From contig JAHQIY010000006.1 in NCBI GenBank assembly GCA_019054805.1, forward strand, positions 620,001 through 684,000: 64,000 nt of DNA, in the 5' to 3' direction. Position 1 is the first letter of the stretch; each line of letters starts with the position of its first letter. The DNA is from Brachionus manjavacas. Its lineage: Eukaryota; Rotifera; Eurotatoria; Ploima; Brachionidae. This document shows, in pieces, positions 4,717-63,949 of the stretch. The notes beneath the pieces were generated by a model that was not told the origin of the DNA, made no database searches, and saw only the letters and a list, made by a program, of their open reading frames with translations. A program made the translations under genes and the position numbers.

Positions 4717-5057
4717 ATGAATGAAACAAAAAAAGAGAACAAGTAAGACAAATAGTTTAATATTTTATTTGAAGTCTGCGCATAAAAAATTCTAATGAGC
4801 TAGCTGAACAAACAAAAAAATAAATATCTTTCAAATTATTTCTATTATTTTCTGTGTATGTGTGTGGTGTGTGCTGCATACGACAAAAAAATTATTAAAA
4901 AAAAATTATTAACAACAACCATTATCCAAGTCTCACTTATTTAGTTCATACAAAACAAAAAGCAAAACGAGTAGCAACCAGCAAGCAGCAAGCAGCATCA
5001 AGCAACAAAGGGCCCAATCAATCGAACTGATCATCATCAGGAGCAGGAGAAACAGCG
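4717..5057 (+). promoter_or_regulatory. Upstream region and probable 5' UTR of the beta-TrCP gene
   Basis: AT-rich flank with a TG-rich stretch near 4855-4875, followed by an AGCAAGCAGC-rich segment (4972-5009) just before the start codon that looks like 5' UTR. No TATA box or start site can be assigned with confidence. Confidence 0.35.
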
Positions 5058-16168: not shown

Positions 16169-17247
<1,079 letters not shown>

Positions 17248-32800: not shown

Positions 32801-35800
32801 TTAACTGTTGGATTGTTTTCTAGTAAAATTGGAATGGAAGAAAACCTATTTGCTGAAAGTGCTGGGTAGATGGTCCATGATTTGTTCATAGTGTGTTTTT
32901 GAATAAAGTTTAAGCTAAAATCTACTTTGAGTTTTATAATTTGATATCTGAAAAATTTTTGTGGCTTGCGGACGTCAATGGGCAGTCCAGTTTTGTCCAA
33001 GGAAGATGGAAACTCAGGTTCTTGAATTAAAATCCACTGAAATTCAATTATTCAAATTTTTTTTTTAGATTACTTACTGAATACACAGTTGGGTTGTATC
33101 TGAGATAAAAAGTAATTTTCATACTTTGGAACACATTTGGATTGTTGCAAGGTGTAAGCTAAATAAAAAAATTGAAAAATTGTTCTCTGATTAAATTTAA
33201 ATCATTTTGGTAAAATGTAATCAATTTAATAGTAAAAAATGGTTAATTAAAATTTTAATTAAATTGAAAAAAAAATTTTATTTAAATTTTTTTACGTTAA
33301 AAAAAATATCTTAAATAGTTTTAATGCTTTTTAATTGTTTGACCAACCTCCTTGATTTTCTATTAATTTGATTATTATCTAGATTATAATTTAAATTAAT
33401 TATAATTTTATTTTAATCTTTTTTAAATATTTAATGTAATTTTGAAATTTTACCATTTTTTACTACTTATTACTATTAAATTGATTACATTTTATCAAAA
33501 TTTACGTATATTAGGGTAAATTTTTTTTACATAATTATGAAAATAAATATTGAAGGATAAAAAAAATTAATTTTTTTTAAAAAAGTGCCAGATTTTTCTC
33601 AATTTTTTGGACATTTTTTTTTACATAAATTTACGTAAAATGAATCCTGAAATTTACCAAATTTTACGTAAAAATTAGTAAATTTACGGTTTTTTACTTT
33701 TGTAAATTTACGTAAATTATCGTAAATTACTAAATACGGAACACCACTGTATGTAATTGATTGCATTCTTTTTTAATTCAAATTTTTAATTATTTTCTTA
33801 TTAAAAAATTATATTTGATAATTTTTAATTATAAAGCTGCTTTCAATTATTAGGGATTTCGTTGTATGGGGGTTCGGAGGTTCGACTGTATTTGGTTTTA
33901 GTGCAGTGATAACTTAAAATTTTCGGAATTTAATGCCGCGTTGAATATTAAAAATTTGGATTAGCTTAAGATTAATCGATTTTAATATGAGATCGAAGAT
34001 AAATTATGCATTCACTAAAATTTGGAATTTAACTGTTAATGCAAGCAATTCTTTTCAAGGAATTACGGTAGTCAATAGATTGTCATACCCTTGGTACAAC
34101 TATTTGAAATAAGTATAATATCTTGAAAACTAATCATTTCCTGAAACGCAAGAATTTTCATTTGTCCCTTCACATTTGAACGTGAAAAATTCCTGAATAA
34201 TTACTCTTCATGGAAAAATAGCAAGATTTGTTTGAATAATTTTTAAAACCCGAGAAAAAAATTGACTTCGGAATCTCTGAACATCGAATGATCGAGATTA
34301 AGACATTTATTATTTTTAATTTTAAATTATTAAATTTATTATTTTAAAATACTTAAAGAATTTTTGCTAGTCATTATATTCATTGTGAAAAAAAAAACTT
34401 TTAAGTTTGGACTTGGACTTGACTTGAGACTTGTGACTTTTTAAACAAAAACGTATTTAAAAAATAAAAAAAAAAAATTCTTTATTTATTTTAAAAAGTT
34501 TTTCAAGATTTTTTTTTTTTTCAAAATTTTCCAAAAAATTTAGTGACTGTCCGCCAAAAAGTTGACCGGTTATTTGGCCGCCCGTATATTTTAGACCGTT
34601 TATTTTGGCGATCCAAAAAATAGACCGCCTAGCTGACCGGCTAAATGACCGCCCGCTTAAAGGTTGTCCCGCTAATGCGGACACGGTCACGGTTTCTGAA
34701 AATTTTGGCCGGTCGAGTGTCCGCTTGTACGGATCCCAGGGGTTGTGAAGTTCATTTCAATTCGATCGTTTCAATTCAGAAAAACTTGAATAACTTTTTT
34801 ACTAAAAGAGATAATTCAGTTCTGAGAAATGCTTAATATTAAGCAACTTTGCTTAATCCAAAAATATATGTCTGCAAAAACTCTGCAATTTAATTGCACA
34901 CTTGATTGGAATACTTTTTAATGGGCTGCAAAATTCAGAAAATTGCAGAGTATTTTGCTTATAATATTAATATTAAGCAAATTTGCTTATAATTAAGCAT
35001 TTCTCAGAACTGAATTATCTCTTTTAGTAAAAAAGTTATTCAAGTTTTTCTGAATTGAAACGATCGAATTGAAATGAACTTCACAACCCCCGGATCCCAA
35101 CACTATTCAAAAGCCATATTTTTGTTATGAATTTAAATTTTTTTTTTTAGAATTTTGTATGAAATTTAATAATGCTGGATCTTCATATTATTTTAAAGGT
35201 GTCATTTTTAAATATTGAAAGTTAATTGTTGAAACTTTATTTATTTGTTTTAACTTTTATTATAGATAAATCAACGAGCAAACTAGTGAAATAAAATAAT
35301 CTTTTATTTATCCTTGCTTATCTGACCCAATTATTCGAGTGACAAGATCATTAAATATTTTATTTTCCAGTGACCAGTGACCAAATCATTTTATAAAATT
35401 CAACGTGAATTTTTTCATCAATATTTTATTTACAAAGTTGAAAGAGAATCTTTAAAAATATTCAAAAATGAAATCATTTTTATCCGAGATAGAGGTTCAA
35501 AAAAAGATAAATCGGAAAGAAAATTTTTAAATTTTTTCTTTCCAGCTGTTCAATATTATTATTTTTTCCGCTTCATACCATTAATTAAAAAATTAAATTT
35601 TATAAATTTTGGTTAAATTTCGAAACTTTAATTTTTGATGATCAATGGAATATGATGATAGCAAAAAATAAATAGAATCTATTTTATATTCTAAAAAAAT
35701 AATAAATTTTTTTTACTTACTCATTATTTCGCTTGTTGTGTAAGAATATTCGAAGCTGTGATAGCTTGAACTACCTTGATTGGGAAAAGTTTAAAAAAAT

Positions 35801-38800
35801 TAGATAAAAATTTTAAGTCACCATTAATAATATCCACGCGTGCTTTTATATTAATCGAAGAATTAGACAGTTTCATTTTGATAAAATAGGTAAAGTACAA
35901 AGGATATGATTTTAGGACTGGAATCACATCATAATAATGGCCATGTTCAATAATAGAGTTTAGTAAAAATATTTTTTTTGAATTTTCATCCTCAAGTTTG
36001 GTTATAGACTTGTCATCTTGGTCAAGTGAATAGTCTGAATGGGCATAGGTCATTTTATCTAAATTGGCAATTGCCACTCTCCCATCGTCAATTATTTCGA
36101 TCACCAAAACTGTTCCTTTAGATACACGCACAGACTCAATCGAATAAATTTTTTTGTCTTGGTCCAGTTCAATTGTTTTTTCTAGCAAATAAATTACTGA
36201 AGTAAATTTTGAATTTTTGTCAAAATAGGCTGAACATGGTACCAAATTGCCACAGTCTGAAAAATTGGCCAACTTGATAAAACAAAAATTAAATTTGAAT
36301 TCTAATTTTTTGAGAGATTTTTTTTCTGAGCTGTCAGCCTTGGGTTCTTTTCAAGGTTCTGTGAAAATTGAAATTTCTAGATCTAAATTTAATTTTAAAA
36401 AATGAAGTGTTAATCGGTCTTTAATGCACAGGGGCACTAGCCATGTTGATTAACCTTGAAATTGAAAAATTAAAAAACTGAAGTCAAATTTTATAACTAA
36501 AAACCTTTTTTCATAGATCTTTAATTCTAAACCAGTATTTTCTTTAAAATATTTAGTGAAGACAATTAAGAAAGAATTTTCAACAGATATTTTCATCTTC
36601 CACTTGAAGATCCACTTTTCTAATTCGTCTAAGTATTTGTTTTTCTTATTTTAAAGATTTAATTTTTTCTTAAAAATCAGACTTTTTTTTTAAGTCACAA
36701 GTCTTAAGTCAAGCCAAGTCAATGACACAAAATTTTTAAAAAATTTTAAAAATCAGATTTATTTATTTGAGTCATGTCGAGTGTGTGACGAAAGATATTA
36801 AACTTAAAAAGGAATTTTTTTGTGATCAGAAAATTTTTAATTAAAAAATAAAGTTGTATTTAAAGTTTGTGGAAAATTTTTTTTAAGTCTAGATTTTAAC
36901 GCCCTTTTCACTCCTCTATTTGGCTCAGTTAAGATTGGTCCTACATAATTATTGACCCAAAATTTAAAAATTTTGAAAATTCCCTGATTTGGCTTTATTT
37001 CTTTCTCCAGCCAGAAAATCAGAAGATTTGGGTCTTATCGATTATGTGATCCTGAAGTCACTTAATTATGTGACTCCGCGACGATACTGGTTTGGTGACT
37101 CCAACAAACAAAAAATTAAAGATATATTTTTTTATGATTAAAAACTTATATGACTTAGACTTAAAAACAAATCTGTTAAAAATCTACAATGTAACCAAGT
37201 CGCCAGCAAAAAGAAGAGAGTATTCTATTGACTATTCACTATTTGTTTATCAATTTATTGAAATCAAAATTAATCTTGTGTCATTTTTTTCTTTGCTCGT
37301 TTACAAATCTTCAAAAAGTCAGAATTCTTATGAAAATTTTCGATTTGATGAGCTACATTTTAACACATCAAGAATATTTTTTTGAACCAAAATTTTAATT
37401 TCAAAATGTTAAGTTTATTTGAATATTTTTGAACTAAAACATAAAGGGAACAAGAAATAGTTCCAAACCTTTTATTCCTTTTTTTTCAGCAAAAAAAAAA
37501 AATCCGCCACAAGTTAAAGTCAAAATAATAAGAAAAAATTTACCTTTATTTTAATTTTTCCTTTTGAAAGTGCAAAAATTTCAAATCCAATTAAATTTGT
37601 ATCATACTTAAACTCATTATTAATTAGCAAAAAAGATTTATGATTTGAACTTGGCTGATTTTTATCTATTGAATTTGGAATGACAGGACCAAAATGATTT
37701 AAAAAATTGTTGCTTTTTGAATTTAAAATTGTATGTTCACAGTTTCCGAAATCCACAAGAGCTGAATTGACGCTAGTTTGGCTGAAAATAATCAGATAAC
37801 AATCCAGGTCCAAATCATTAATTGATCTGCACATGAATTCCATGCTTTTTTGGTTAGTCACCATGTAATTCTTAAAAATAGCGCCCATTGAAATGGAATA
37901 ATTGCCAATAAAGTCGTATTGAATCGTAAAGTTTGTGGCTCCATAGAAATAGCCTGGTTGTATTTTTACTCTAAATACGAACTTTCTATTATCCGAAAGA
38001 GCTTCTAGAATATTCTTTCTTATTTCTAAATCAGCTGTAATTGAATTTGTATGAACTAAAGCAATTGCGTCCCTGGAATCAACTTGGATAGAGAAAATGT
38101 AATTTCTGTATATTCTATATGGTTTTTCAAGCAATATTGTGTTAAGACCTTTTTTAGATTCGTAGTTCCATGAAGTTATAAGACTCCCTGTAAAGGTCAC
38201 ATTTTGAGAATAAGCCAAGGCGCAAGTTTCCATGCATTCATCAAACTTCCAAAGGTTTATTGTAAAAGTTTGATTTTCAAAAGAAAAAAAATCGAAGCCG
38301 ATTAGCTCTGTTTCAATTTTAATGTGTGTGTCTATTAGCAAGAAGTGGTCTCCATCATTATCGGACAATTTCAAGTATTCTGAATCATGATCAAAGTTGT
38401 TAAGACCAAAGCTATCAAAATAATTTCCTAAAGAAAATTAATTTATTTTTTATAATTAGAAATTTAAAAAATTGATTCAAAATTTTTTAGTTTATTTTTG
38501 TCTATAGTTTTAATTTTTTAAAAAAAGGAGATATTTTTGTTCAGTTTTTACCAAATTTTACAATATCTTTGAAACCGAAAATATTTTTGTAAATATAGAC
38601 AAAATGGATCGAGCTAGAACGAGACATATAAAAAGATAAAAACAATTCAGGATGCAAAATGGCATCCTTGGATGCTGAAAAAGCATTCGATAAAGTTTGG
38701 AGAGATGGACTGTTTTATAAATTGATTCCTAAAATGGATATTAATTATTGGTTTATTCTCAAAAAATATTATGATCTCTCTTCAGGTATTATCTTTTTTG

Positions 38801-41800
38801 ATGAAAATAAAAAAACAGAAAGTTTCAAAATTAAATGTGGAGTAAAACAAGGGGGAATTATTTCTCCTTTTCTATTTAATATCTTTATAAACGACTTAAT
38901 TGAAGAATGCATTTCTAAAGAAATAGGAGCTCTTTTTAACAGGCACAATGTATGTATAATTGTATATGCAGATGACATTCTTTTGTTGAGTCCAGTAGAC
39001 TCGCATTTACAAGAGCTGCTAGTTATATGTAATAAATATGGAAATAAATGGAAAATAAAATTTAACCCGTCTAAATCAATGATAATTGAATTTGGAAATA
39101 ATATTTTTAAAAATGAATTTTATCTAGGCAATACTCATTTAACAAAAGTAGATAAGATAGACTATCTCGGTATTGAGATTCCATCAAATCTAGACTTTGA
39201 GTCAAAATCTATAAATAAATTCTCTAAAGTGCATCAAGCTATTTTTTCCTTATCTAGGATTAAAAAAATGTAAAATTTCACCCTTTCTACAATCTTTCAT
39301 TTATAAAACGTATTGCTTGTCCCAATTTACATATGGACTCGGAACTACAACTTTAGGAAAAAAAACAAAAGAGGCCCTAAATACCTCACAGAATAATCTA
39401 CTAAGACATATAATAGGATTAAAAGGTAGGTGCCATATGAAAGACGTGTTAAATGTTTACAAATTTTTAACATTGATGAACTTTACATTCAATCAAAACT
39501 CTCTTTTCTAGGAACCTTGAAATTTAATAAGCTTTCATACGATATATTTCACGAGTTAACTAAAACATCTAGAGACATCGGATCTAGACTAAAAACATTT
39601 GATCATGATATAGTAACATTAGAAAATTTTTTTAAATTGGACATAATTAACATATATAATAATTCTGGAGTCCTAAAAAGGGATCTTAAATTACAATTTA
39701 AACTAAAAGATGGACTAACTGACTCTATTAATTTATGTTTAAACAATATAAATAATAGAAAATATTTTCTTCTTCTTCAAGAATTAACTAAATCATTTTG
39801 ATTTTAAATGTTTAAAATTTATGTTTTTTTTTACATGTATTTTTATCTGTATTTTATCTTTTTTTTTGTATATTTAAGTCTTTTTCTTTTCTTTTTCTTT
39901 AATTTTTCAAATTTAAAATTTTTACATCTACTTCTCCTAAAAGGAGGTTAATTCAATTTAAATAAATAAATAAATAAAAAGATAAAAAAACATATAGCAA
40001 AATAATAATTTTAAAAAACATAAATCAAAATCAAAAATTTCTTAATTTGTTAAATTTAATTTCAGAAACTATAATATAGATGTTTAATTTTTGGATTATC
40101 TGAATTTCTAAACTGTTGAACCGACTTTTATTTTTTTATTTTTATAGGAAGTTTTCTGATTATAAATAAAGAGTTAAATACCCAAGGTAAACGTTCATAA
40201 AAGAGAAAAAACTTTTTAGAGAATTTTTATTTTAGAGAAAAAAAATAGAGATAATTAAGTGTCAATATTATAGAGAATAAATTTAAAAGAGAATAAAAAA
40301 TATAATAGAGAAAGTAAATTAGAGAATTTTTTTTATAGAAAAAAATAGCGTCAAAAATTAATCATTAACAAATTAGGAAAGCCACGAATAAATAAATCTA
40401 AATTGTTTTTATTATAATCCAAAACTTGTCGTTTTATCTTTTTTTCTTTTTTTTTAGCTTTTAATGTCATTGACTTTAATAGATTACCAGCAAACAACAA
40501 CAACGAAGTCGATTTATTATGGGTGAATTAAAATAATTAATCTAGCTTGAATTTATTAGAATTTATAAATTTAAACTATTGATTTACAATTTATCAATTT
40601 TTAATTGTCTTTTTATTATATTTTAACTAATTTTAATTTTTCTTATAATTTTTCTTTACATTTTTATTTTATTTTATTTTTTTTTAATTTTTCAATCAGA
40701 AGGAGCTTTAGCTCGGCACAGATAAAACAAATAAATAAAATAATAATGAAATTGAAATTGAAACTTTGATTATTTTTCTCTATTTTAATTTTCTCTCTTT
40801 TGTATATTCTCTATGATGATTTTTATCTATTATAATTTTTCTCTATTGTGATATTTCATCTTACCGAATTACCTCGTTCATTTAAACAAGCTAAGACATG
40901 CAAACTGAAACATCATATTAAAAATTTTTTAGCATTGGTGAGATATACTTTAGTTCATTTTCAAAAATCTGCTAGTTTAGCTTAAGGTGCATCATAATTG
41001 AACGAGGAAATACGGTATAATTTTAAGACCCAGTCTAATTATCGCCTTATTTTAATTAATTTTATGTTTTCTCTCTTTTTGATTTTTTAAATTTATATTT
41101 TTTTGCAATGTAAAATGCAACGCTTTAGTGAAAAAGAAAAAAGGTTATTATTGTCCGAATGGCTGCACAAAAAAAATGATTTCAAATAAATTACTTTTTT
41201 TATTTATTAATTAAATTTTTTGGTAAATGTTAAGAAAAAAATTTCGGTTAATCTTTTTTTTCTGGAAACATATATTTTGTTTATTTTTTTATAAAATTTA
41301 TTGGGAATTTACAAAATTAGTTATATCAAAATATTATAAGCATATTTTTTTCTCTCATTACATCAGCAAAATTTGTTAAATAAATTTTTAATTTTTTCTA
41401 TTTTTATGTTTTTTTCTATCTCACCTGATAATGGGGTAATTCAAATTAAAAAATTTAACATTTTGTAGAGGTATTTATCTTTTTTTGCTATTTTTAGATT
41501 AAATTAGATATTATAATGAGAGATAATTATTTCAAAATTAATGAAAATTTTGATCCTGAAAAAAGAACCAACATCATCACCATAAAAATATAAAAAAAAA
41601 TTCTAGTTAAAGGTTTGAAGAGGTTTGAAAAAATTGAAGATTTGAAATAGATTGATTTTTTGGCTTTTAAAAGCCCTGAATGCTAAGATTTAGGTATCGA
41701 AATGCTTACTGGTAGATGTTAAAAAGCAAAAGAGCATATTGGTACATTTATTGAAGAATAGATATTTTCCGCTTTTAATAGATAAAAAATAAAAAAGTCT

Positions 41801-53800: not shown

Positions 53801-56800
53801 AAAGACGCTAAAATATTTTATTTTGTAAAGAATTTAAATTTAGATGAGTCAAATTACTTGAAATTTTTACTGTTTGATTGTAATTTTGATCCGAAAATTT
53901 TACATGACTATAATCATTAAAGACATATCCTATGATTGTACAATTGGCTTCATAATTTAACATTTTGCCTAAATTCCAACACATTGTTTGCACGCATTCA
54001 TCTACAAAGATTTAATTTTTCTTAAAATGAGGATTATACAAAATAAATAAATCATGATTGGGATTCTACATAAAAGAACTTTTTTATTTTTTTTCAGAAA
54101 ATAAAAATTTGGAATTCAAAATAAAACGGGTCTATTCCCTTTTGTGACCAAAATTTTTTTAGGAGATAGGTGACGTACACTGGTCACGAAATACGTGATC
54201 AAAATTTAGGTGAACAAAAAAATTGAGATAATAAAATCATTGATCACATAATTCTTAGTTTGATCACATAAAAAAATTATTTGAAACTCATTTAAGTTTT
54301 GAAAACTTTTTCAAACATAATTCATCAGGAACCTTAAGAATTACATAAAATATTACATTAAAATGACTTTTCAAATTTAAAATGCAAAATAAAAAATTGA
54401 AACATAGTTGTAATTTTAGTATTTAAATAGAAAATTTATTTCATGAAAAAGAGTTTAAAGTGAAACATGAAAGTCAAAGACGCTATTAAAGAAACAGAAG
54501 CTTTTAGAATGTTTTCTAAGCTTTATGAGTTTGAAAACATTAGATTAGTTTTTTTTTACTTTAAAGACTAATTAAATAAAACTAATTAAAATTATTATAT
54601 ATCTTTAAAAAATATCAAATTAATTTACTAATCCAATTCTTAACTACGCTTACACTTAAAAAATTCAAATTTAGTATTTAAATAGTACTCAAAATAAAAT
54701 GTTTACTTAAGTTTTTCAATTAAATATTTTTTAATGTTCGTATACTCATTTATTTAAATTCACTTATAATTTATTTAAAAAATTTATTACACATAAGTAT
54801 TTTTGATCATTAAAAAATGGAAAGTATTTTAAGTTTTCAAGCAGGATAAAATTCTAATTATCTATTTTAATAAAATTTCAAAAAAAATCTAATCTAATCT
54901 ATCTTAGGGCATATTTCTAACATGTTATCAGAAAAAATAATCGAACAAAATAATTAAAATATACTAGAGAGCCCTTTCACTGTAAACGATGTGTACAATG
55001 ACATTGTTGTTGTTAATAGTTTATTTAATATTTCAAAAGAAATAAAGGCTTTGAGTAATGGAACTCCTTTCGCCTTTGGTATTTAAAATTTTAAAAAAGT
55101 GTCCATATAAAAAGTTGTGTTGAATTAATTAAATTAATAAAATGACATTAGAAGTTGAAAAAGAAAACGGAAATGTCACAGAAAAACAGTTGTCCATTGA
55201 AATAGCTCATTTGAGACTTTACAAAGAAGGGTTTTAAGTTCAGAACTTCTTGAGCTTTCAACAAAAACATCAATATAATCCTGTATGAGTGAAGTAATGA
55301 GTGTGTTTTCACATATTAAACTTTTTTTTATGTATTTTTAGAGCAGAATTCTGAGTCTAGACTCAATTCTATCAACCTTTTGGTCCTTGAGAAGGCCAGA
55401 AAGTTGGATAGAAGGTGTGTCATAAGGTAATAGATAGATTGATTTAAAACATGTATTTTGAATTACTTGCAGTTTTTGAATGTTTGTCTGGGAGACACGG
55501 GATAAGATGAAAAAACTATAGTCTATAATGGAACCTATAAGTGCATTATAGACTCCAATTAAGGTTTTTTTATTTAACTTCCACGATCTGTGTGACAAAA
55601 TTTTAATTAAATTTACGCGATCATGACATCTAGAACGAATGAGTTCAACCTGGGAGTTGAAACAAAGACTTTGGTCAAATTTTATTCCAAGGAAGACTGG
55701 GGAGTCAGTGTAGGGTATTTGTTTTCCAAATAGTTTTAGACTTAGCTTAATGTTTTTGACGGATTACCAGAGTAAAAAATGTAGCTACATTTTTCTGGGG
55801 ACATCTTTAGCCTCCATTTTTGTAGCCACAACTGCAATTTTTTAAGATTGGTTTTAATCCAATTAATAAAGAATGGTGGAATGTTTTATTGTTTTATTTT
55901 TTTAATTAGATCTGATTAAGATCTGAATCAGATTAAAAGCAATATTGACGTTTTTTTAAGATTTCAAGAAATTAAGTATCGAGAAAAAAATTCCTTAAGA
56001 GTTAACCTGAACCAGCTAGCACTGATCTCGATATTGCCACAGAGAAGAACAACTTTAGTGCAAGACAAAAAAATCGTATGCTAACAACTATAAGAAAGCA
56101 CTTTAGAGAAGTTCTAAGTAGACCTGAACCTAAAGAATCTGTAAATCCTGAACCAGCTAGCACTGATCTCGATATTGACACAGAAGTGCCTAGCCATAAA
56201 GAAATAGAATCTGCGATAAAGACTCTGAAGAACAGAAAATTTCTAGGTATTGACGGAGTCACGGCAGAAATGTTGATAGCTGACGGTAGAATCACAATAG
56301 TGATATTGCAAGACCCTTCAGCAAGATATGGTGCCAAGAAATGATACCAGAGGACTGGTCAAAAGGCTTAAAATTTAAGCTCCCTTAGAAAGGTAACAAA
56401 ATGATCTGTGAAAATTGGCGAGGAATAACACTACTTACAATTGGAAGCAAGGTGTTCTTAAACATAATTCTGGAAAGAATCAGGAACGCTTTGAATTTAA
56501 TACTAAGAGAAGAACAAGCAGAATTTAGAGGTGGCAGAAGATGCATAGACCAGATATTCGAATTTAGGAACATCATAGAACAAAGTCTGGAATGGAATGG
56601 CCTCCCTGTATCTTAACTTCATTGACTTCAAGAAAGCCTTTGAAAGCATACACAGAGAAACCTTGTGGGCCATAATAAGGCCGGCTACAGAAGATAGTTA
56701 ACTCTTCTCGGATCCTCGGGATACACTGGCCTGAGACATCGTAAAATTTTTACTTATACATTAGAACAAATTCAGAGCCATTAAGTCAGTGTATTAAGAT

Positions 56801-59800
56801 TAAAAGACTTAGATGGCTTGGGCATGTACCAAGTATCAAAGAAACAGGAATACCAAAAAGAGCCCTTCTATGGACACCTCAAGAACGACCAGCAGTAACA
56901 TGGAGGTCAACTATCACAAAAGAGCTCATCGAAATGGGGATGACATGGGGAGAAGCAAGAGTAAAGGCAAATGATCTACTTAAGTGGAAACCAAAAGTAA
57001 TGCCTCCATGCTTTACAAGGAGAGAAAAAGGAAATAAAAAAAAAGAGGAAAAACGAAAAGATGCTCGATGTGTCCTATGACAAATGAAAACCCAACACTA
57101 AAGTTAATGTCAATGAGATTTTTTTACTTTTAGCAGTATGAAAGTTTAGAGAGAAAGAAAAGAAAACGATCATAAAAATTTTTAAATCTTTAATTGTACT
57201 GATGATTTTGTCTTATTTTTATTAAGCTTTATAATATTTTTTTTTGAATTTAACTAAAATCAGAGTTTTTTAAAAATCCCAAATTAAAATTTAAGACAAT
57301 AAAAAAACTGAAATTGTGACTTAACTCTCACTAAAATTTACTTAAAAATAATTTCAAAAAGTTTTAAATTAATTTTTAATCAAGCTTTAAATTTCTGGTT
57401 TGATTTTTACTTACCACTAAAAATTGAATATTGCTTTTTCAACGAAATAGAAGAGTTTAAAAAATTGATCGATAAATTCAACAATGTTTCATTATTAAAT
57501 GACATGTAAAAATTATTAGAATTTTCAAAGTATTTTCGATCAATCAGCGCATTTACATAAAACTTCCAATGCAAAAGTTGATCGAGCTTTATTCCAGCAT
57601 TGGCGGTTTTGTTAATTTTCAGGTCGAATATCAAGGAATTGTTTTTTTTATCTATAGCCAGAATGCCAGGCTCGGACACATACACCATGATCATACTTCC
57701 TTTTCTCACTCGACATTTTTCTTCATAAAGCACTCTGTTATAACCTTCACGAGCATCCACGCTCATTCTACAGTAACTGTTGCTATAATCAATATTCGGA
57801 TAAGATAAGTAGATCCAACTAGAACAAGAATCTTGGATCCCACACCATTCAAAGTCAATTATCTAGAAAAAAATCAATGAAAAAAAAAAACAAATTAGTT
57901 AAGTACACTAAAATCAATTCTTCCGGGTCTAACTGCTATAAATTCAAAGCCTAAACAGTAGGCGTTGTAATAAAATTCCGTATTTGGAAGAATAAAACTT
58001 CCTGTCATCAAAGTTGTGTCTCGAGTGTTTATTTTTTCTAAAAATGGATGACTTCCGAAAAAATTCAAGCTGTCATCTAAATAAAATTTTTTAAAAATTT
58101 AAAATATTTTAATAAAATTTTACTCTCGAATGAGACTTGATTATCTCTAAACTTAAATCTATCTGATTTTTCCATGGTAAATGCATTTAGAGTGCAAAAA
58201 ATTAATCTGTCCAAAATATGCTCCCAATTTTGACAAATTATATCAAAAACTTGATCTAAACATATTTTTTATTAAAAAAAATTTAATTAAGAAAAATTAA
58301 TACTTTTTTTAAGTTCAATTGTGGCATTTTTATTAAAAGTTGTTAAATTAGAATTCTCAAAATTAAAATTTAAATTAAAAATGCCATATGAAGGAAATAG
58401 ATGATTTAAATTAATTGAAAATTGTGAATAGTCTTGTTCAGCAAAAATAACATTCAACAGGATTCGTTTTTTGTGCAAAGGAATAAAGTCGCCAACGCTT
58501 TGCTGATAATCGCTCACTAGATCAGAATCATCTATGAAAAATTTTGCTGTTGACTTTGCAGGAATAGAGATAAAAACCACAGACCCTTTTGGAATTTTTT
58601 TCTGTTGACACAGACTGAGTTGATTAAAACCCTCTTGAATAAAGTACTCCTCTGAATAAATAGTATTCTGAGAATGGTTTGTGCCAAAATTATCAAAATA
58701 ATCTGAACATGAGAAAATGTTTCCACACGATGAAAATTTTGTTATTCCGATGATCACACGACCACCTGAATTTGCGTATAGTTCGTACCCAAGGATGTGA
58801 GCATCGAATTTTGTCTCTGTATTCATCAAAAAGAATTGCAAGTCTTTAGTATCTTGTTGTGTGTTTTTCAAGCCTTGATGGTAGTTTAATTTTGATGATC
58901 CAAAAAAAAATTTCGGCTGTGGTTGAACATCTTTTCAATTTGGAAATTAGTTAAATAAAATTAAATTTTTAGAATTAAATTATACGTTTAAGATCTAGTT
59001 CGGCCTTTTGGCCATCACCAAAATCTATCTTTACTGTATCGTATGCAAAAGGTGTTGAAATTTCTACAGTAAAATTGAAATTTTTGTCAAATATATAGCC
59101 GATGTTGGACAATTTAATTATTAAGTCTTAATAAAAAAATTTTTTTTTAATAAAATTTTTGATTTAATTAAATATTTAGAAGAAGTCATTTTTCTAGCTT
59201 TTATTCGTTCTTCTCTTGAGTTCTTGTCTCATCTTTTAAGTTCTTGTCATCATCTTAAGCTTATCATTAACACACTCGACCAGTGCAACGAAAAAAATTT
59301 ATTTTAATAGTTTTAATAAAGAAATGAATCAATTTTATTTATTAAATATTTTTCAAATAAATTAATTCCATTTGAGATATTGAAAATTTATGTTTGCCCA
59401 TATAAAATGTTTTATGGCCATTTAAAAACAAACTTTTGCAGAATCTTCAATCAAAGATTTTGAATTTTTTTACAATAACTTATTTTTCATAAGCAAATTT
59501 TGAAGATAAAAATTTATATGGAACTAAGACATCATTTGATCAATATTTTTCCAGAGTCATCTTAATGACTGAAGATATTATATTTAGACCACGATAAAAA
59601 ATTTATCCAGATAAAAATGACTGAGAAAAATGATATCCAGTTCAAAAAAGATGGATTGAAGAAGACTTTGGCTAGTGAAACTATTAAGAAAATAGAAAAA
59701 ATAGAGCTTCTGAACGGGTAGCTGGAAGTGGCCATTTAGAAAAAAGGCTTTTGTCTGATAAAAGTGATAAAGTTTTTCAAACTCAGGTCGTTAGACGCTT

Positions 59801-62800: not shown

Positions 62801-63949
62801 CCTCAGTGGGCTTTGAACCCTCGATCCTCTGCTTGCATGACTAACACGCAAACCATTCGGCTATACGGGTTCTATCTCTCCCTTATTTTAAGTTACTACA
62901 TTATCAAGTTTTTTTCTTGGAATTTCTTGATAACTATTCTGTATTAATGGACACTTCTTTAATTTTATTAGTGGCACATTAATTTAGTAGCACTATGAGA
63001 ACTCTTTAAAAAATTTCAAATTTAAAGTTAAAAGCTAAAATTTCGTAAAATTACAGAGATACAAAAGTTTAGGATAAAATTTAAAACACAATACCTTCAT
63101 TTCTTAAAAAAGTGATATTTATTTTTTTACTGACATTACTGAGTAGCCTTTGATCAATTTGCGCCTCTATGCTAGTAATCTTGTAGTCTAGTAGATGAGC
63201 CTCTTGACCAAATTGGTTGGTAGCAATGTGTTGACTCAAATATAAAGTCCTATCAACTAGAGCATTTAACAAAAATCTCCAACTGAAACCAATAGTCACA
63301 TTGTACAAGCATCCTTTTTGAGCATGATCCGAATATACAGCATCGTTGGTTGCAGTAATGGCCAATAAATTGGAAACATCTGTATGGATATAGACCATTT
63401 TTTCTTTAGTTGTCCAAACCGGTGTGGTTAGCTGATGCAAGTTGTAGCCCTTGGTCAAAGTAATTGATGCAATTGAAGTCTTCTCAAGTGAATCTAAATT
63501 TGGATTTGTGCGATAAAAGTATTCTGCACATGAACTATAATTCTCACAGAATGATTTAAAATCAATTACCTTTAAATTATCAGCATTAATGAAATTAAAT
63601 GATCAATTAATTATTTTAAGGTAATTTACATAAAGTGTTAACCGGCCAGGATTTACTGCATAAAGTTCAAAGCCTACCAAATACGCATCTAGTTTGAACT
63701 CGGTGCTAAGTAATAAAAAATGCCCGGTCAGTGATGTTGAAATTTCTTGTACAGTTGAATCGTTTTTGTCATACGAACCAAAGTAATTTACCACTTTGTC
63801 TGTCATTGAAAATGATCCATCATTTGTTCCATTATCAAATGTAAAATTTATTGAGTCCTCCTTATTTTGACTTAAAGCCAACAAGGAACAATTCATTGAT
63901 TCTTTAAATTTTTTATTCAAATTTGGACAATTAATGTCCAAATACCAAT
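21361..63949 (-). CDS. Giant polycystin-1-like receptor-channel (3' part of the gene; 5' end beyond the window)
   Basis: Twenty-one exons on one strand: 63949-63630, 63569-63095, 59126-58986, 58930-58304, 58255-58124, 58076-57907, 57862-57415, 54001-53858, 53807-53184, 47982-47842, 47791-47622, 47567-47138, 47090-46956, 43594-42971, 42915-42769, 38427-37544, 36272-35775, 33158-33078, 33036-32192, 29782-27218, 23815-21361. Every junction is GT-AG and every phase matches, giving about 4,017 codons without an internal stop. Order: eight PKD-like plus beta-domain modules, REJ, GAIN/GPS, TM1, PLAT, ten more TMs with a polycystin channel pore. This is the polycystin-1 (PKD1/PKD1L) architecture: a plasma-membrane or ciliary mechanosensory/adhesion receptor that in the family pairs with TRPP2-type subunits. 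No signal peptide is visible because the start lies to the right. Long introns hold the mobile elements. The donor at 35775 is the least certain junction. Confidence 0.88.
24080..25190 (+). mobile_element. CR1-like LINE (LINE-C), RT half, in the last intron
   Basis: Antisense to the host gene. Frame-broken translation: VFMDFEKAFNKVSHRAM, GPVLGLLLFVIFINDMPS, KLFVDDTKLLTMI (catalytic DD), ISTFRQLYVAFVRPHLEYAV, ILEKVQRRAIKFADD. Several stops. The 3' end is GCTGTAGCTTAAATTATTAT; similar tails occur alone at 44100-44215 and 52062-52135. Confidence 0.9.
25191..27217 (-). other. Remaining part of the last intron, no gene seen
   Basis: AT-rich. Two perfect short hairpins stand out: around 26662-26682 (GCGTCTG/CGGACGC) and 26976-26996 (CATCAGCT-GAGA-AGCTGATG). 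No ORF with recognisable content. Confidence 0.4.
27218..29782 (-). CDS. Exon encoding REJ C-terminal part, GAIN/GPS, TM1 and PLAT
   Basis: It starts with CRLKEFCKTYGKY, then a REJ Cys motif (LQSDCIDGCNSA). A long helical/GAIN region leads to the GPS at about 27885-27755: ECFYFDTKLAAWISDGLEV, later TTCRSTHLTDFAG. As in human PKD1, only two of the four classical GPS cysteines are present, and the HL-T cleavage triplet is intact, so autoproteolysis is plausible. TM1 (PTIYITVIFVCSAYLLMSII) follows at about 27690-27620, then a PLAT/LH2 domain (WNYFYEINVFTGSRKDAGTK, GVERPLGSLFYCRVLHENS, SWFLKHLIVTDLQTNEKFI) ending FICEKW with the Trp codon split TG|G at the donor. The acceptor at 29783 joins in phase 2. 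Confidence 0.93.
30076..30351 (+). repeat. 276-bp near-identical dispersed repeat, copy 1
   Basis: Matches 36976-37251 base for base with only three substitutions that I can find. It contains the hairpin AGTCACTTAATTATGTGACT and, near its end, GACTTAGACTTAAAAACAAA, which resembles the terminus of the AAGTCA fold-back family. Confidence 0.92.
30707..31697 (+). mobile_element. Tc1/mariner element with internally deleted transposase
   Basis: Inverted ends: GTCTGGAAAGTTTAGAACAT near 30713 and the inverse of GTCTACAAAATTTAGAACAT near 31674-31694. The ORF from 31085 encodes the paired-like DNA-binding region (MGKKKVSEAQRWQIIGLLKD, SQQEIADLVAVSRKCV, LPRSGGPRKLTSRDE) and the first catalytic Asp (VAFIDESNFEV). 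After VFVKHD it breaks and jumps to the C-terminus in another frame (SMPKRVAECIKAKVGHFKF). The second Asp and the final acidic residue of the catalytic triad are deleted, so the protein is dead. Confidence 0.88.
31698..32191. other. Intron remainder, nothing recognised
   Basis: AT-rich sequence with a short GC-richer patch at 31970-32095. No ORF or repeat match found. Confidence 0.4.
32192..33158 (-). CDS. Exons encoding the REJ N-terminal part
   Basis: An 81-bp exon (33158-33078: LTPCNNPNVFQSMKITFYL) is followed by a 41-bp intron and an 845-bp exon (33036-32192). The joined reading ...PTVYSWILIQEPEF... and later LPYGVYKLVHWIYVQIDTGY, ELVPGGIAIFCLENGLDL and FNSSEDFYFSASGKILTIK have the alternating hydrophobic pattern and GG turn of the REJ domain of polycystin-1 and sea-urchin sperm receptors. 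The donor ATGAC|GTAATT splits a Thr codon in phase 2 and fits the next exon. An alternative acceptor inside the 845-bp exon would need a different frame for the small exon; the chosen reading keeps the better hydrophobic pattern. Confidence 0.8.
33204..33500. repeat. Inverted repeat, ~40-bp arms, in an intron
   Basis: TTTTGGTAAAATGTAATCAA at 33204 and its inverse ending about 33500 (arms include ATTTAATAGTAA and AAAAAATGGT) enclose ~210 bp. It may be a small MITE. To its right (33495-33755) TTTACGTAAA words recur up to GGAACACCACTGTA. Confidence 0.55.
33760..34380. other. Intron stretch with an old dispersed repeat
   Basis: TTGTCATACCCTTGGTACAA near 34080 recurs at 49850, and the sequence at 35180-35330 recurs at 50487-50660, so two copies of an old repeat surround the fold-back insertions at both loci. 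No gene. Confidence 0.4.
34400..34729. mobile_element. Decayed AAGTCA fold-back element with GACCG-rich loop
   Basis: The left arm has GACTTGGACTTGACTTGAGA and CTTGTGACTT. The loop (34550-34720) repeats GACCG/CCGCC words, matching in style the loop of the complete element at 50100-50240. The right arm is missing where the MITE begins. Confidence 0.45.
34730..35099. mobile_element. MITE with ~125-bp inverted arms and 9-bp target duplication
   Basis: Body 34739-35090, flanked by the perfect direct repeat CGGATCCCA (34730-34738, 35091-35099). The termini GGGGTTGTGAAGTTC are inverted, and the arms match almost perfectly for ~125 bp (ACTAAAAGAGATAATTCAGT, inner TAAGCAA words), leaving a ~110-bp loop. 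No ORF. A 9-bp duplication is typical of Mutator-like elements. Confidence 0.92.
35100..35774. other. Intron remainder
   Basis: 35180-35330 is similar to 50487-50660 (shared AATATTGAAAGTT and TTTATTTGTTT words). The rest is AT-rich without recognised content. Confidence 0.4.
35775..37852 (-). CDS. Module 8: PKD-like domain plus beta domain
   Basis: The PKD-like part (FMCRSINDLDLDCYLIIF, then SALVDFGNCEHTI, linker ending NHFG) and the first third of the beta domain (FLLINNEFKYDTNLIGFEIF, KGKIKIK) lie in the exon ending at 37544. A phase-0 intron of 1271 bp follows. The rest (ANFSDCGNLVPCSAYF, VRVSKGTVLVIEI, AHSDY) is in exon 36272-35775. It is the last module before REJ. The VDFGNCE stretch retains the PKD 'DFGDG' turn. 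The exon end is uncertain: a donor at 35775 (AAG|GTAGTT, phase 0) fits the next exon, but a small additional exon is possible. Confidence 0.78.
36402..36465 (+). mobile_element. Solitary LINE-B 3' tail
   Basis: AATGAAGTGTTAATCGGTCT ... GGGCACT ... GTTGATTAACCTT matches the tail of LINE-B at 8980-9045, here on the plus strand. Confidence 0.75.
36678..36735 (+). mobile_element. AAGTCA fold-back arm
   Basis: CAGACTTTTTTTTTAAGTCA followed by CAAGTCTTAAGTCAAG, nearly identical to the left end of the complete element at 49886. Confidence 0.6.
36976..37251 (+). repeat. 276-bp near-identical dispersed repeat, copy 2
   Basis: See 30076-30351; three differences (T/A, G/A, C/A). It lies in the module 8 intron, exactly 6,900 bp from copy 1. 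Confidence 0.92.
37853..42915 (-). CDS. Module 7: PKD-like exon 42915-42769 and beta domain in 38427-37853
   Basis: The PKD-like exon reads FACHNSNETVNNSLECTGFF. A 4341-bp intron (with LINE-D on the plus strand) precedes the beta domain: GNYFDSFG linker, FLLIDTHIKIETELIGFDFF, KFDECMETCALAYS. This is the most divergent beta domain (THIKIE replaces TEFKFD), and it runs without an intron into module 8. Phases are 1 at both ends of the small exon. Confidence 0.82.
38628..39988 (+). mobile_element. LINE-D, 5'-truncated young insertion with 15-bp target duplication
   Basis: The insertion 38643-39973 is bounded by ATAAAAAGATAAAAA at 38628-38642 and 39974-39988. It encodes RT palm and thumb in one long frame (ASLDAEKAFDKVWRDGL, CGVKQGGIISPFLFNIFIND, IVYADDILLLSP with the YADD box, KIDYLGIEIPSNL), then after frameshifts GLGTTTLGKKTKEALNTSQN and LSFLGTLKFNKLSYDIF to the stop at about 39801. 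The tail is TCCTAAAAGGAGGTTAATTC with (AAAT)n. It belongs to a different family from LINE-A to LINE-C. Confidence 0.93.
40190..40865. mobile_element. Fold-back-like element with TAGAGAA-motif arms, carrying a LINE-A tail
   Basis: The left arm (40200-40360) repeats AGAGAATAAA and TAGAGAAA; the right arm (40765-40860) has the inverse TTTTTCTCTA and TTCTCTCTTTT. Within it, 40530-40742 on the plus strand is a short LINE-A 3' end (AATCAGAAGGAGCTTTAGCT, CGGCACAG, (AAAT)n). Confidence 0.5.
40880..42768. other. Intron remainder with one small unrecognised ORF
   Basis: A plus-strand ORF at 42011-42220 (69 codons; LDDVDQALSDELKALYII) has ordinary amino-acid composition but no recognised domain and may be a transposon fragment. 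At 41820-41890 SPVLGPLLVIANNI weakly recalls an RT motif. The rest is AT-rich. Confidence 0.3.
42971..47090 (-). CDS. Module 6: PKD-like exon 47090-46956 and beta-domain exon 43594-42971
   Basis: The small exon reads LDVFCRNSNRTLNNQINCTI and ends in phase 1. After a 3361-bp intron, which contains the FLYWCH/MULE element, the single beta-domain exon reads HYG linker, ILPNTEFKFDSYLNGFELY, GSLNITIVDFDLKPWND, IEIKRGSVILIE, LYSDYF, NWRFYFSCEIGHQYYF. It lacks the two cysteines that other modules have after the IxxF strand. Confidence 0.85.
43690..43835 (+). repeat. SINE-2-like repeat, copy 3
   Basis: GAATGGAACTTAGTCCTTCC, CTTGAATTAACATATTTAA and TTTGATAAATTTAGTTTTT are shared with 13376-13520; the degenerate head aligns with the B-box-like head at 15628. 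Confidence 0.65.
44100..44215 (+). mobile_element. LINE-C-type 3' tail
   Basis: GCCAGCTACAGCC followed by (ATT)n resembles the tails at 25100-25190 and 52062-52135. No coding part is attached. Confidence 0.35.
44640..45067 (-). mobile_element. CR1-like LINE C-terminal fragment
   Basis: Minus strand: KKLGLTNLKERRLRGDLIQQ, FKIAKGIEHVEF, RESVKNCNQRHNFF, then VNDWKDLYDSII and FKSKLDK. It is interrupted on its 5' side by the MULE element at 45068. Confidence 0.8.
45068..46104 (+). mobile_element. FLYWCH/MULE-type transposon, internally deleted, with fold-back arms
   Basis: Terminal inverted repeats of about 29 bp (TTATTTTGACAAACATG and TGTTTTGACAAGTA, against the inverse ending at 46104) are extended by arms made of many TTTCGACAA words (left) and TTGTCGAAAT/TTGTCTAATT words (right). 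Between them an ORF from 45241 (MNEIVSQLENLNLNLIV, SYILIDDDYFEYKT) looks like the start of a FLYWCH domain. A second frame (45400-45901) carries the C-terminal part of an animal MULE transposase (GLELWNCFERTRLGLPRTNN, NLEGWHNALQS). The DDE catalytic region between them is missing. The flanks show only a weak possible target duplication. Confidence 0.8.
46105..46955. other. Intron remainder
   Basis: Contains a GATGAA-rich microsatellite-like tract at 46360-46402. No other supported feature. Confidence 0.4.
47138..47982 (-). CDS. Module 5: exons 47982-47842, 47791-47622, 47567-47138
   Basis: PKD-like exon: IDILCKNQKYPLNYVINCT. The beta domain is split by a 54-bp phase-0 intron: NTEFMFDTKITGFELFALD before it, IIFFDSCGTIDTCSSLLF after it, then VKKGQMVFIN and FNVLVDSSYYF. 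All introns within the module are 47-54 bp. Confidence 0.87.
48465..48685. mobile_element. Second MITE copy, 9-bp target duplication ATATTTGAA
   Basis: Body 48474-48675 with direct repeats ATATTTGAA at 48465-48473 and 48677-48685. The right arm (TTATTCAAGTTTTTCTGAAT, ATGAACTT, AACAACCCC) matches the MITE at 34739-35090; the left arm is mostly replaced or deleted after TTGTGAAGTTC. Confidence 0.82.
48686..49877. other. Intron remainder, AT-rich
   Basis: No ORF or repeat boundary is recognised. Confidence 0.4.
49878..50453. mobile_element. hAT-like fold-back element with 8-bp target duplication
   Basis: Body 49886-50445 between perfect ATATAAAT repeats (49878-49885, 50446-50453). The right terminus inverted is CAGACTTGTTTTTAAGTC; the left is CAAAGTTGTTTTTAAGTC. 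The left arm holds four tandem copies of AAGTCAAAGTCATGACTTGA with T runs; the right arm holds the inverse. The loop (50100-50240) is GC-richer with CGGTC words. No ORF. Arm motifs recur at 3866, 34400 and 36678. Confidence 0.88.
51018..51764 (-). mobile_element. LINE-A copy, 5'-truncated
   Basis: Minus strand: SQKEIKFLGIKFDFKLNFN, KERCNKRLNIIKILSNKKCG, IQNKAVRSILKLNFDTPS, NRLFELSERFFGTGLSHS. The family tail (TCTGAAGGAGTCCTGACTCG, (AAAT)n) ends near 51018. Closest to the copy at 14369-15192. Confidence 0.9.
51790..51862 (+). mobile_element. LINE-D-like 3' tail
   Basis: ACTTTTCCACAATGCAATTC followed by (AAAT)n resembles the LINE-D tail at 39925-39973. Confidence 0.4.
52062..52135 (+). mobile_element. 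LINE-C-type 3' tail
   Basis: GCAAGCTCGCTTGCTGTAGC then TC and (TTA)n, related to the tails at 25190 and 44215. The GCAAGCTCGCTTGC stretch is nearly palindromic. Confidence 0.4.
52558..53150. mobile_element. hAT-like element next to the module 4 exon, right end not found
   Basis: Starts AGTGTTGGCAATCAACTCC, a hAT-like terminus, with repeated AAATCGATTAA/TTAGTCGACTA words. Inverse words (AATCGATTTTTAAATCGACT) appear at 53118-53140 just before the exon ending at 53184. No clean right terminus or duplication. Confidence 0.4.
53184..54001 (-). CDS. Module 4: exons 54001-53858 and 53807-53184
   Basis: PKD-like exon: CVQTMCWNLGKMLNYEANCT. The beta-domain exon has no internal intron: HFGYG linker, FLLINTEFAFDANLFGFELV, VSFGQLCSEYATCAEYF, VRVSNKSMIILHTE, YFYSDL, YRFQFNCLIDRKYYRF. 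A 50-bp intron separates the two exons, and a 5.2-kb intron follows. Confidence 0.9.
54125..54275. repeat. GTGACCA/TGTGATCA repeat, related to 299-858
   Basis: Repeated GTGACCA, GGTGACG, GGTCACG, GTGATCA words in an intron. Only one arm is recognised. Confidence 0.35.
54276..55320. other. Intron remainder
   Basis: AT-rich; nothing supported. Confidence 0.4.
55325..55870 (-). mobile_element. LINE-E fragment, RT C-terminal part
   Basis: Minus strand: KWRLKMSPEKCSYIFYSGNP, VFLGIKFDQSLCFNSQVEL, ILSHRSWKLNKKTLIGVYNA, LIGSIIDYSFFILS, IQKLQVIQNTCFKSIY. Related to but distinct from LINE-A. Two frame breaks. Confidence 0.85.
56020..57080 (+). mobile_element. LINE-F copy 1, internally deleted
   Basis: EVPSHKEIESAIKTLKNRKF, then GIDGVTAEMLIADG, CENWRGITLLTIGSKVFLNI, EEQAEFRGGRRCIDQIFEF and NFIDFKKAFESIHRETLW are RT palm/finger segments. 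The sequence then jumps at about 56700 to the C-terminal end (KRLRWLGHVP-type reading, GIPKRALLWTPQ, GMTWGEARVKANDLLKWK), omitting the YxDD box. The region at 55995-56030 and 56145-56175 repeats AACCAGCTAGCACTGATCTC, a partial tandem duplication. Confidence 0.88.
57415..58255 (-). CDS. Module 3: exons 58255-58124, 58076-57907, 57862-57415
   Basis: PKD-like exon: FDIICQNWEHILDRLIFCTL. Beta domain: FFGSHPF linker, ILPNTEFYYNAYCLGFEFI, PGRIDFS, a 44-bp phase-0 intron, then IIDFEWCGIQDSCSSWIY, CRVRKGSMIMVYV and WKFYVNALIDRKYF. Confidence 0.88.
58304..59126 (-). CDS. Module 2: exons 59126-58986 and 58930-58304
   Basis: The PKD-like exon keeps the canonical turn VKIDFGDGQKAE but lacks the two cysteines found in the other modules. 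The beta-domain exon is uninterrupted: FFFGSS linker, FFLMNTETKFDAHILGYELY, KFSSCGNIFSCSDYF, KIPKGSVVFIS, LVSDY. It supports assignment of all eight N-terminal halves to the PKD fold. Confidence 0.88.
59127..59760. other. Intron stretch, no gene
   Basis: AT-rich. A TTCTTGTC-rich patch at 59208-59258 is the only structure seen. Confidence 0.4.
59764..60420 (+). mobile_element. LINE remnant (unrecognised ORF plus RT C-terminal part)
   Basis: A 101-codon ORF (59764-60069: KADQFWQILKEEKQKKNW) is not recognised by itself. It is followed by a CR1-like RT reading with stops (KKTNQTLGLIKKTLKYHDME, RSHLEYAVQILNPMLKKDIK), so the ORF is probably decayed LINE sequence. Confidence 0.5.
60780..62345 (+). 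mobile_element. LINE-F copy 2, endonuclease end and RT C-terminus, RT palm missing
   Basis: ANDEVKSMFYDQLQRTIDKV, FRHKNMDKLA and FTGADIYSDH belong to an APE-type endonuclease. VLGFRKHKKKRWKSDETRTL is the linker. After about 61600 it jumps to MCINTKLDTPIITDGTQIEC, EFTYLGSTIRT, AKSSFARLQPAWKSTSY and KKELIEMRLTSVEAKAKAKD. Many stops. The same family as 56020-57080, with a different internal loss. Confidence 0.85.
62562..62895 (-). mobile_element. SINE-1, full-length copy with 15-bp target duplication
   Basis: Body about 62577-62880, flanked by CCTTATTTTAAGTTA at 62562-62576 and 62881-62895. On the minus strand it begins with the same tRNA-like head as 2676 (TATAGCCGAATGGTTTGCG; B-box GGTTCAAAGCCC) and ends AATTATTATAAC-like. 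It contains the ~26 bp (CGACTGGGTAATAATTGCGG) missing from copy 1, so it represents the full body. Confidence 0.93.
63095..63949 (-). CDS. Module 1 in the window: exons 63949-63630 and 63569-63095
   Basis: The PKD-like part (INCPNLNKKFKESMNCSL, FTFDNGTNDGSF, VVNYFGSYDKND) and the start of the beta domain (FLLLSTEFKLDAYLVGFELY, PGRLTLY) share one exon. A 60-bp phase-0 intron is followed by VIDFKSFCENYSSCAEYF, KEKMVYIHTD and WRFLLNALVDRTLYL. The acceptor TTTCAG before 63949 is in phase 1 and needs another exon to the right of the window, so more modules or the N-terminus lie there. Confidence 0.88.

Follow-up and report, generated by a model that had tools for sequence, protein, structure and literature searches.

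The PKD repeats of polycystin-1 are the well-studied force-bearing repeats of a disease receptor. Two hallmarks identify a PKD domain, an Ig-like sandwich of seven strands: the motif DFGDG and a strand of the G-x-Y type. In human PKD1, the PKD array is preceded by LRR, WSC, lectin and LDL-A domains. Members of the polycystin-1/PKD1 family such as human PKD1 and SpREJ have a PKD-related array followed by REJ, GPS, PLAT, Polycystin_dom and PKD_channel. Human PKD1 contains 15 tandem PKD repeats, and the PKD repeats of the family are 50–70 residues long (PMC1934368).

The window analyzed here is a stretch of 64,000 nucleotides of Brachionus manjavacas (contig 6, positions 620,001–684,000; the genome comprises 114 Mb in 61 contigs). 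It covers only the 3′ half of a polycystin-1-like gene on the minus strand. Our main reading, to which we assign a probability of roughly 0.6, is that this gene encodes a receptor of the polycystin-1 type with 15 composite modules in its ectodomain, each of them one Ig-like PKD domain that is interrupted between strands C and F and then completed by strands F and G. The parts of the gene are arranged in the order known from the family, i.e., a putative signal peptide, 15 modules, REJ, a putative GPS (with HLT), PLAT and the polycystin channel. Unlike human PKD1, the array directly follows the putative signal peptide and has no domains before it. The units are 233–265 residues long instead of 50–70, and each is apparently a PKD domain with an insert of about 150 residues. 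That the array has 15 units, as human PKD1 does, is possibly a coincidence. The ectodomain is probably a variant of that of polycystin-1 in which the PKD domains are interrupted, built otherwise than the first-pass annotation held. That annotation did recognize a PKD-related part of the module, which is present. It also proposed that a short PKD domain alternates with a separate second domain, whereas PKD features are found at both ends of the module with the second domain between them.

Placement of the gene in the polycystin-1 family, as first annotated, agrees with the REJ, PLAT, Polycystin_dom and PKD_channel matches downstream of the array. An open frame between the array and the REJ exon (32188..33051, minus strand) has no confident Pfam match and probably belongs to the ectodomain. 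The following frame (27214..29784, minus strand) contains REJ, GPS and PLAT by Pfam and the first transmembrane segment by eye. REJ (PF02010) matches with an E-value of 2e-20 over profile positions 216–448 of 452, and the REJ of this gene scores 7.3e-20 in the genome-wide search. GPS (PF01825) matches residues 638–677 of the frame with 20.0 bits (E 0.00097), which is under the cut-off of 22.5. A GPS motif, CRSTHLTDFAGSF, is read in the sequence at 27745..27783 (minus strand) as a putative cleavage site, and its HL-T tripeptide is presumably that of cleaved GPS sites. PLAT (PF01477, E 3e-14) occupies residues 749–856, C-terminal to GPS and separated from it by the transmembrane segment placed by eye. 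The last frame (21361..23844, minus strand) matches Polycystin_dom (9e-36) and PKD_channel (4.9e-27) in Pfam. A match to DUF4842 (0.0061) in the gene frames was set aside, as it is repeated by no second module. Order and strand suggest that array, REJ, GPS, PLAT and channel would belong to one transcript, and the order and strand of array, REJ, PLAT and channel are the same in five loci of the genome. Introns of the gene contain two plus-strand pieces, a reverse transcriptase piece (38632-39273; RVT_1, 1.1e-28) and a Tc3-like transposase piece (30914-31606). Plus-strand frames at 30174 and 37074 begin with a nearly identical peptide, which is another repeat.

The gene starts at an ATG at window-equivalent position 87605, 23.6 kb beyond the window. 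From this ATG to the channel frame, the region occupies contig 6 positions 641,361-707,605. Its first exon consists of this ATG, a hydrophobic stretch that by eye is a putative signal peptide, and immediately thereafter module M1. A TATAAAA lies about 46 bases upstream of the ATG and is only suggestive in this AT-rich DNA. Modules were collected by an iterated profile search, seeded with one uninterrupted module, over the six frames of a contiguous 153 kb with a reporting limit of E 1; weaker first-part exons were added by a relaxed search of the minus strand and by eye. Repeat matches fall on minus-strand frames only. The same profile search returned zero repeat matches in the plus-strand frames of the 153-kb stretch, and an origin of the repeats by chance is rejected on this ground. 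Upstream of M1, to window-equivalent 153,100, the iterated search found no more modules (best loose match E 0.11). Pairwise identity among the 15 modules averages 22% and ranges from 16 to 32%. The repeat first annotated is real. Its count of eight holds for the window (M8–M15, 241–265 residues), while the array has 15 modules and extends 23.6 kb further upstream. The annotated end of the repeat at 63949 is the exact start of M8.

All modules of the window are on the minus strand. M8 (63095..63949) is formed by exons 63630-63949 and 63095-63569, with its boundary to M9 set by hand. M9 (58304..59126; exons 58986-59126 and 58304-58930) has an exact DFGDG and has lost both cysteines of the N-terminal part (N-part). 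M10 (57415..58255) has three exons, 58124-58255, 57907-58076 and 57415-57862, the first of them found by eye, as is the first exon of M11 (53184..54001; exons 53858-54001 and 53184-53807). M12 (47138..47982) also has three exons (47842-47982, 47622-47791 and 47138-47567), and M13 (42971..47090) has two, 46956-47090 and 42971-43594. M14 (37853..42915) is encoded by exon 42769-42915 and the first part of exon 37544-38427, and M15 (35822..37852) by the second part of that exon together with exon 35822-36272; the end of M15 was set by hand. The array opens on the N-part of M1, directly behind the putative signal peptide, and closes on the C-terminal part (C-part) of M15, with no half left over. 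An exact DFGDG is present in 3 of the 15 modules (M1, M6 and M9). In these three it is followed in order by G-x-Y, 178–195 residues further on; most other modules have degenerate versions. In M6, a single exon of 254 residues, DFGDG stands close to the start and YFEYGSYNITL close to the end, 194 residues apart. In M15 (window 37736-37759) a Cys takes the place of the final G of DFGDG, and the same is seen in its counterparts on contigs 12 and 3 (FGNC, YGTC, YGDC).

The gene model of the array comprises 31 exons and 3,771 residues without a stop. It covers the array only, and the exons from M15 to the channel are outside it. The 17 array exons placed within the window run from 63949 down to 35822, and this number stands beside the 21 exons that were first annotated for the gene. 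GT-AG intron ends are there by construction, as only GT and AG sites were considered as junctions, with profile score and splice signals deciding between them. Five junctions were altered by hand (before the second exon of M4, before the second half of M7, and at M8/M9, M10/M11 and M13/M14), and the intron inside M1 was likewise set by hand. Intron phases follow a 1-1-0 cycle, with phase 1 at the module boundary, phase 1 after the N-part and phase 0 inside the insert. Not all modules carry all three introns, and every boundary that has an intron has one of phase 1. This regularity is partly built in because phase was one criterion in the hand-made choices.

Several comparisons favor the reading that each module is one PKD domain with an insert of 138–156 residues between the C-strand (DFGDG) and the F-strand (G-x-Y). 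In a Pfam search of the whole genome for PKD at E≤0.001, nothing was found in the window. Among intact modules, 1 of 15 matches PKD (M6, 20.0 bits, cut-off 23.5) and 1 of 15 matches PKD_4. Flanks were joined by hand in four modules. Joined M6 reaches 23.6 bits for PKD, 0.1 bit above the cut-off, and is the only one of the four to pass; joined M1 scores 19.4 bits for PKD and 19.6 for PKD_4, joined M9 matches PKD_4 only (E 0.14) and joined M4 has no PKD match. When flanks are joined at fixed columns, PKD is matched by 3 of 15 modules (best E 0.00045) and PKD_4 by 2 of 15 at E≤1; at the same limit, the two halves in permuted order match PKD in 1 of 15 (best E 0.0016) and PKD_4 in 2 of 15. Taken alone, this Pfam test of joined versus permuted flanks is not decisive. 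The Ig-like family Ig_TR130_2nd is matched by 1 of 15 intact modules, 2 of 15 joined flanks and 2 of 15 permuted flanks. A weak Pfam match to PPIP5K2_N was set aside, repeated by no second module.

The joined-flank profile matches the nine ordinary PKD repeats of the contig 5 polycystins with a probability of 79–82% and an E-value of about 1e-5, whereas the permuted halves reach 27%, the intact module 11% and the insert alone 0.3–0.4%. Of 406 deletions scanned at 8-column steps, the one that removes columns 56-208, from YF(G) to (L)IDxxYY, ranks at the top with a score of 25.5 (probability 54.7%). Deleting 48-208 gives the second-best score and the highest probability (55.0%), and apart from these two no deletion exceeds 50%. 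In both, the deleted segment runs from YFG, or from just ahead of it, to LIDxxYY. The gain is modest (best 25.5 versus a median of 22.4), and a different deletion, of columns 176-208, scores 24.9. The permuted order scores 22.0 and 40 column-shuffled controls score at most 14.1. Joined flanks thus tested in the scan reach 55%, as against 79–82% in the direct profile comparison. Among PDB sequences, the joined flanks match residues 41-119 of BtSGBP-B (E 0.0014 with the whole chain, 0.011 with that stretch); the intact module gives E 0.53 and the permuted order E 0.15. The ordinary PKD profile matches BtSGBP-B at 51-104 (E 0.054) and also finds the ColH domains and the archaeal 1l0q, and the stretch of BtSGBP-B is taken as PKD-like because the ordinary PKD profile matches there. 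Compared with the PKD domain (PF00801; PDB 1b4r, 1l0q), the module flanks contain DFGDG (3 of 15 exact) and an F-strand of the G-x-Y type, and when joined they match ordinary PKD profiles. They differ by the interruption of 138–156 residues and by an extra pair of cysteines in the N-part, and most modules have degenerated so far that even their joined flanks fail to match the family. The PKD signal per module is weak, with most of it coming from strands F and G, and the split anatomy is a profile-level result.

Two other arrangements of the same parts have to be weighed against the split PKD domain. The module may consist of two separate alternating domains; the first would be short and PKD-like, and the second an independent β domain to which the C-terminal G-x-Y stretch would belong. 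The N-part has its own conserved pair of cysteines and an intron lies near its end in 10 of the 15 modules, as separate domains would lead one to expect, and single modules match PKD weakly with or without the insert. The N-part is, however, only about 55–60 residues long, which would leave no room for the F and G strands of an Ig-like PKD domain. Within the intact module, PKD is matched best by the C-terminal 40–45 residues, and the profile match rises on deleting the middle and not on permuting the halves. We consider the two-domain arrangement unlikely. In the permuted arrangement, the C-part of one module would pair with the N-part of the next across the boundary, leaving a free β domain between. 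The two are adjacent in the chain at each boundary, and in Pfam the permuted halves still have the few PKD and PKD_4 matches given above. Such a domain would nonetheless have the strand order F-G-A-B-C. Its profiles match PKD less well than those of the native order, the array opens with an N-part behind the putative signal peptide and closes with a C-part, and phase-1 introns part the halves at 12 of the 14 internal module boundaries. Permutation is very improbable.

The insert of the split PKD domain is 138–156 residues long with the consensus FLLxNTEFxFDxxLxGFExxAxxxGxxxIxIxxFxxC....SC....GYNxxxL....VxKGxxxxI....AID....SD....L....RFxxNxLI. The motifs that were first listed for the repeat (C-x-N...NC, Y/F-F-G, NTEFxFD, GFELYA, C-x(4-5)-C, KGS, YSD and RF..N.LID..YY) recur in the 15-module consensus. 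Its alternating hydrophobic pattern and its length suggest that the insert is probably all-β. An alignment was made of 38 of 58 module pieces (those above 100 residues, less one). Both cysteines of the insert are present in 28 of 33 rows, neither in 4 and one in 1; the sole single-cysteine insert is that of M5, which has another cysteine three residues on. In the N-part, both are present in 25 of 28 rows, neither in 3 and one in 0. Rows that do not cover the columns are left out of these counts, and some rows are position counterparts and hence not independent; M9 and its counterpart on contig 12, for example, both lack the N-part pair. Joint retention or loss of each pair is the pattern a disulfide would give. 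The second domain was first described as one that could not be named, and Pfam, NCBIfam and PDB sequences offer no credible match shared by several members. In Pfam, no family that suits the insert has matches in two or more of the 15 modules, and of three inserts searched alone two have no match and the third has weak matches only. NCBIfam searches with insert or module gave two single weak matches that are not credible, and the best match among PDB sequences, a ribosomal protein at E 0.29, is not credible either. A match to CBM32 (1 of 15 modules, E 0.032) was set aside, as no second module repeats it. In prokaryote and viral collections, where the search reaches close relatives only, 58 and 4 stretches, respectively, matched short peptides of M13 and none was confirmed. 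A literature search over titles and abstract openings, with subscription journals mostly outside its scope, found, among the papers listed, none that deals with a domain inserted into the PKD repeats of a polycystin or with rotifer polycystins.

The module is not special to this gene. Genome searches with single modules find it at five other places, on contigs 12, 1, 3 (two places) and 8; module counts per locus, made exon by exon, are lower bounds. Five loci with the array are polycystin-1-like, namely those on contigs 6, 12, 1, 3 (at 4.0 Mb) and 8, where REJ, PLAT and channel come after it in order. The other site on contig 3 (5,304,500-5,312,400; L049 and L050) has pieces of at least four modules. 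Genome searches found no REJ, PLAT or channel match nearby, and it is perhaps a secreted or truncated relative. Contig 5 contains three further polycystin-1-like loci. REJ, PLAT and channel follow there as well, whereas the PKD repeats are uninterrupted and their frames pass the Pfam cut-off. In two of the three contig 5 stretches, the ordinary PKD repeats are immediately preceded by a module-like copy (L009, 1.2e-7 and 1e-6; L008, 0.0035, with the N-part by eye). The third, L010, starts inside its PKD repeats, and the region before them is outside the stretch. Elsewhere on contig 5 (3,135,000-3,156,000), at a great distance from the polycystin loci, PLAT domains are densely packed in tandem, and about 20 kb there account for 25 of the 50 scored matches.

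Pieces of the contig 12 gene, taken in gene order, best match the same-numbered modules of contig 6 at 12 of the 15 positions (at least 13 bits, longest piece). Position 5 goes to M5 by a tie (78.3 versus 78.1), and positions 12 and 14 have best matches other than their own number. The strongest position match is that of M15, with 204 bits versus 49. A truncated piece of the module at position 6 has its best match in M15 (72.6, versus 65.5 for M6), and some first-part exons of contig 12 match other numbers or nothing well, short pieces being less clear. In the contig 3 gene, pieces best match M1, M2 and M15 by at least 15 bits and the others are ambiguous. On both contigs the clearest position matches are the counterparts of M15. 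Because 12 of 15 positions best match the same-numbered module, the length and order of the array were very likely set before the duplication that produced the contig 6 and contig 12 genes. A recent tandem amplification is rejected on the 16–32% identity and the position-wise match to a paralog. The order kept between the two paralogs suggests that the repeats have roles of their own and are not interchangeable spacers. Genome searches with single modules gave no sign that the module arose by transposition. Dispersed repeats contain only a 154-bp scrap of M6, consisting of an intron end and an exon start (window-equivalent 77273-77424), at 84–87% identity. Two near-identical copies are on contig 26 and two more, near-identical and in opposite orientation, on contig 2; the blocks of the two contigs share 91% identity over 1.38 kb. 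This piece of the gene may have been captured by a mobile element.

The array could serve as a long extracellular tether, with a putatively cleavable GPS and the polycystin channel behind it. The basis for a reading in terms of force is the force clamp of PKD domains (PMC2862302). An insert between strands C and F would lie away from this clamp, leaving it intact and the host domain still load-bearing. While the host PKD domain stays folded, the insert would be shielded and out of the load path, and it would be loaded, or exposed to a partner, only once the host yields. The full proposal is that the insert is an undescribed family inside the PKD domains of polycystin-like proteins, that the module is a two-stage force switch, and that the array of 15, fixed before the family duplicated, is a graded mechanosensor or ligand receptor with cryptic sites before the channel; as a whole we hold it to be speculative and rather improbable. 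A reading based on chemistry, and not on force, is itself doubtful and still deserves weight. The inserts would then be a bank of ligand-binding (e.g., sugar-binding) domains on a PKD scaffold, comparable to the lectin domains on other polycystins and on sea-urchin REJ proteins. The modules are strongly diverged, yet their positions are kept across two paralogs, as might be expected of such a bank. In the polycystin-1 family, C-type lectin domains are frequent in the REJ proteins of sea urchins, and the acrosome reaction of sperm is set off by antibodies to SpREJ1 (PMC1934368). Against a ligand bank, no lectin or carbohydrate-binding family is matched consistently, CBM32 appearing only in the single module mentioned above. 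Chemical sensing is retained because the channel complex can be activated by N-terminal pieces of human PC-1 (PMC7728438), and it does not exclude the split PKD anatomy.

A lineage with a whole domain in the middle of the repeat shows where the PKD fold tolerates insertion. The interrupted array is also a natural test of what the ectodomain senses, be it force, ligand or both. An insert without a Pfam match means that genes of this kind may be annotated as unknown repeats, and a split-PKD model would let other genomes be checked.

Two single-frame genes neighbor the polycystin-1-like gene in the window. The minus strand encodes an RPN11-like JAMM protease of the proteasome lid (16256-17146; RPN11_C 1.3e-37, JAB 1.7e-35). 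The plus strand encodes a β-TrCP-like F-box/WD40 protein (5031-6635; Beta-TrCP_D 7e-21, WD40 1.7e-53), and this gene has long open frames on the opposite strand too.
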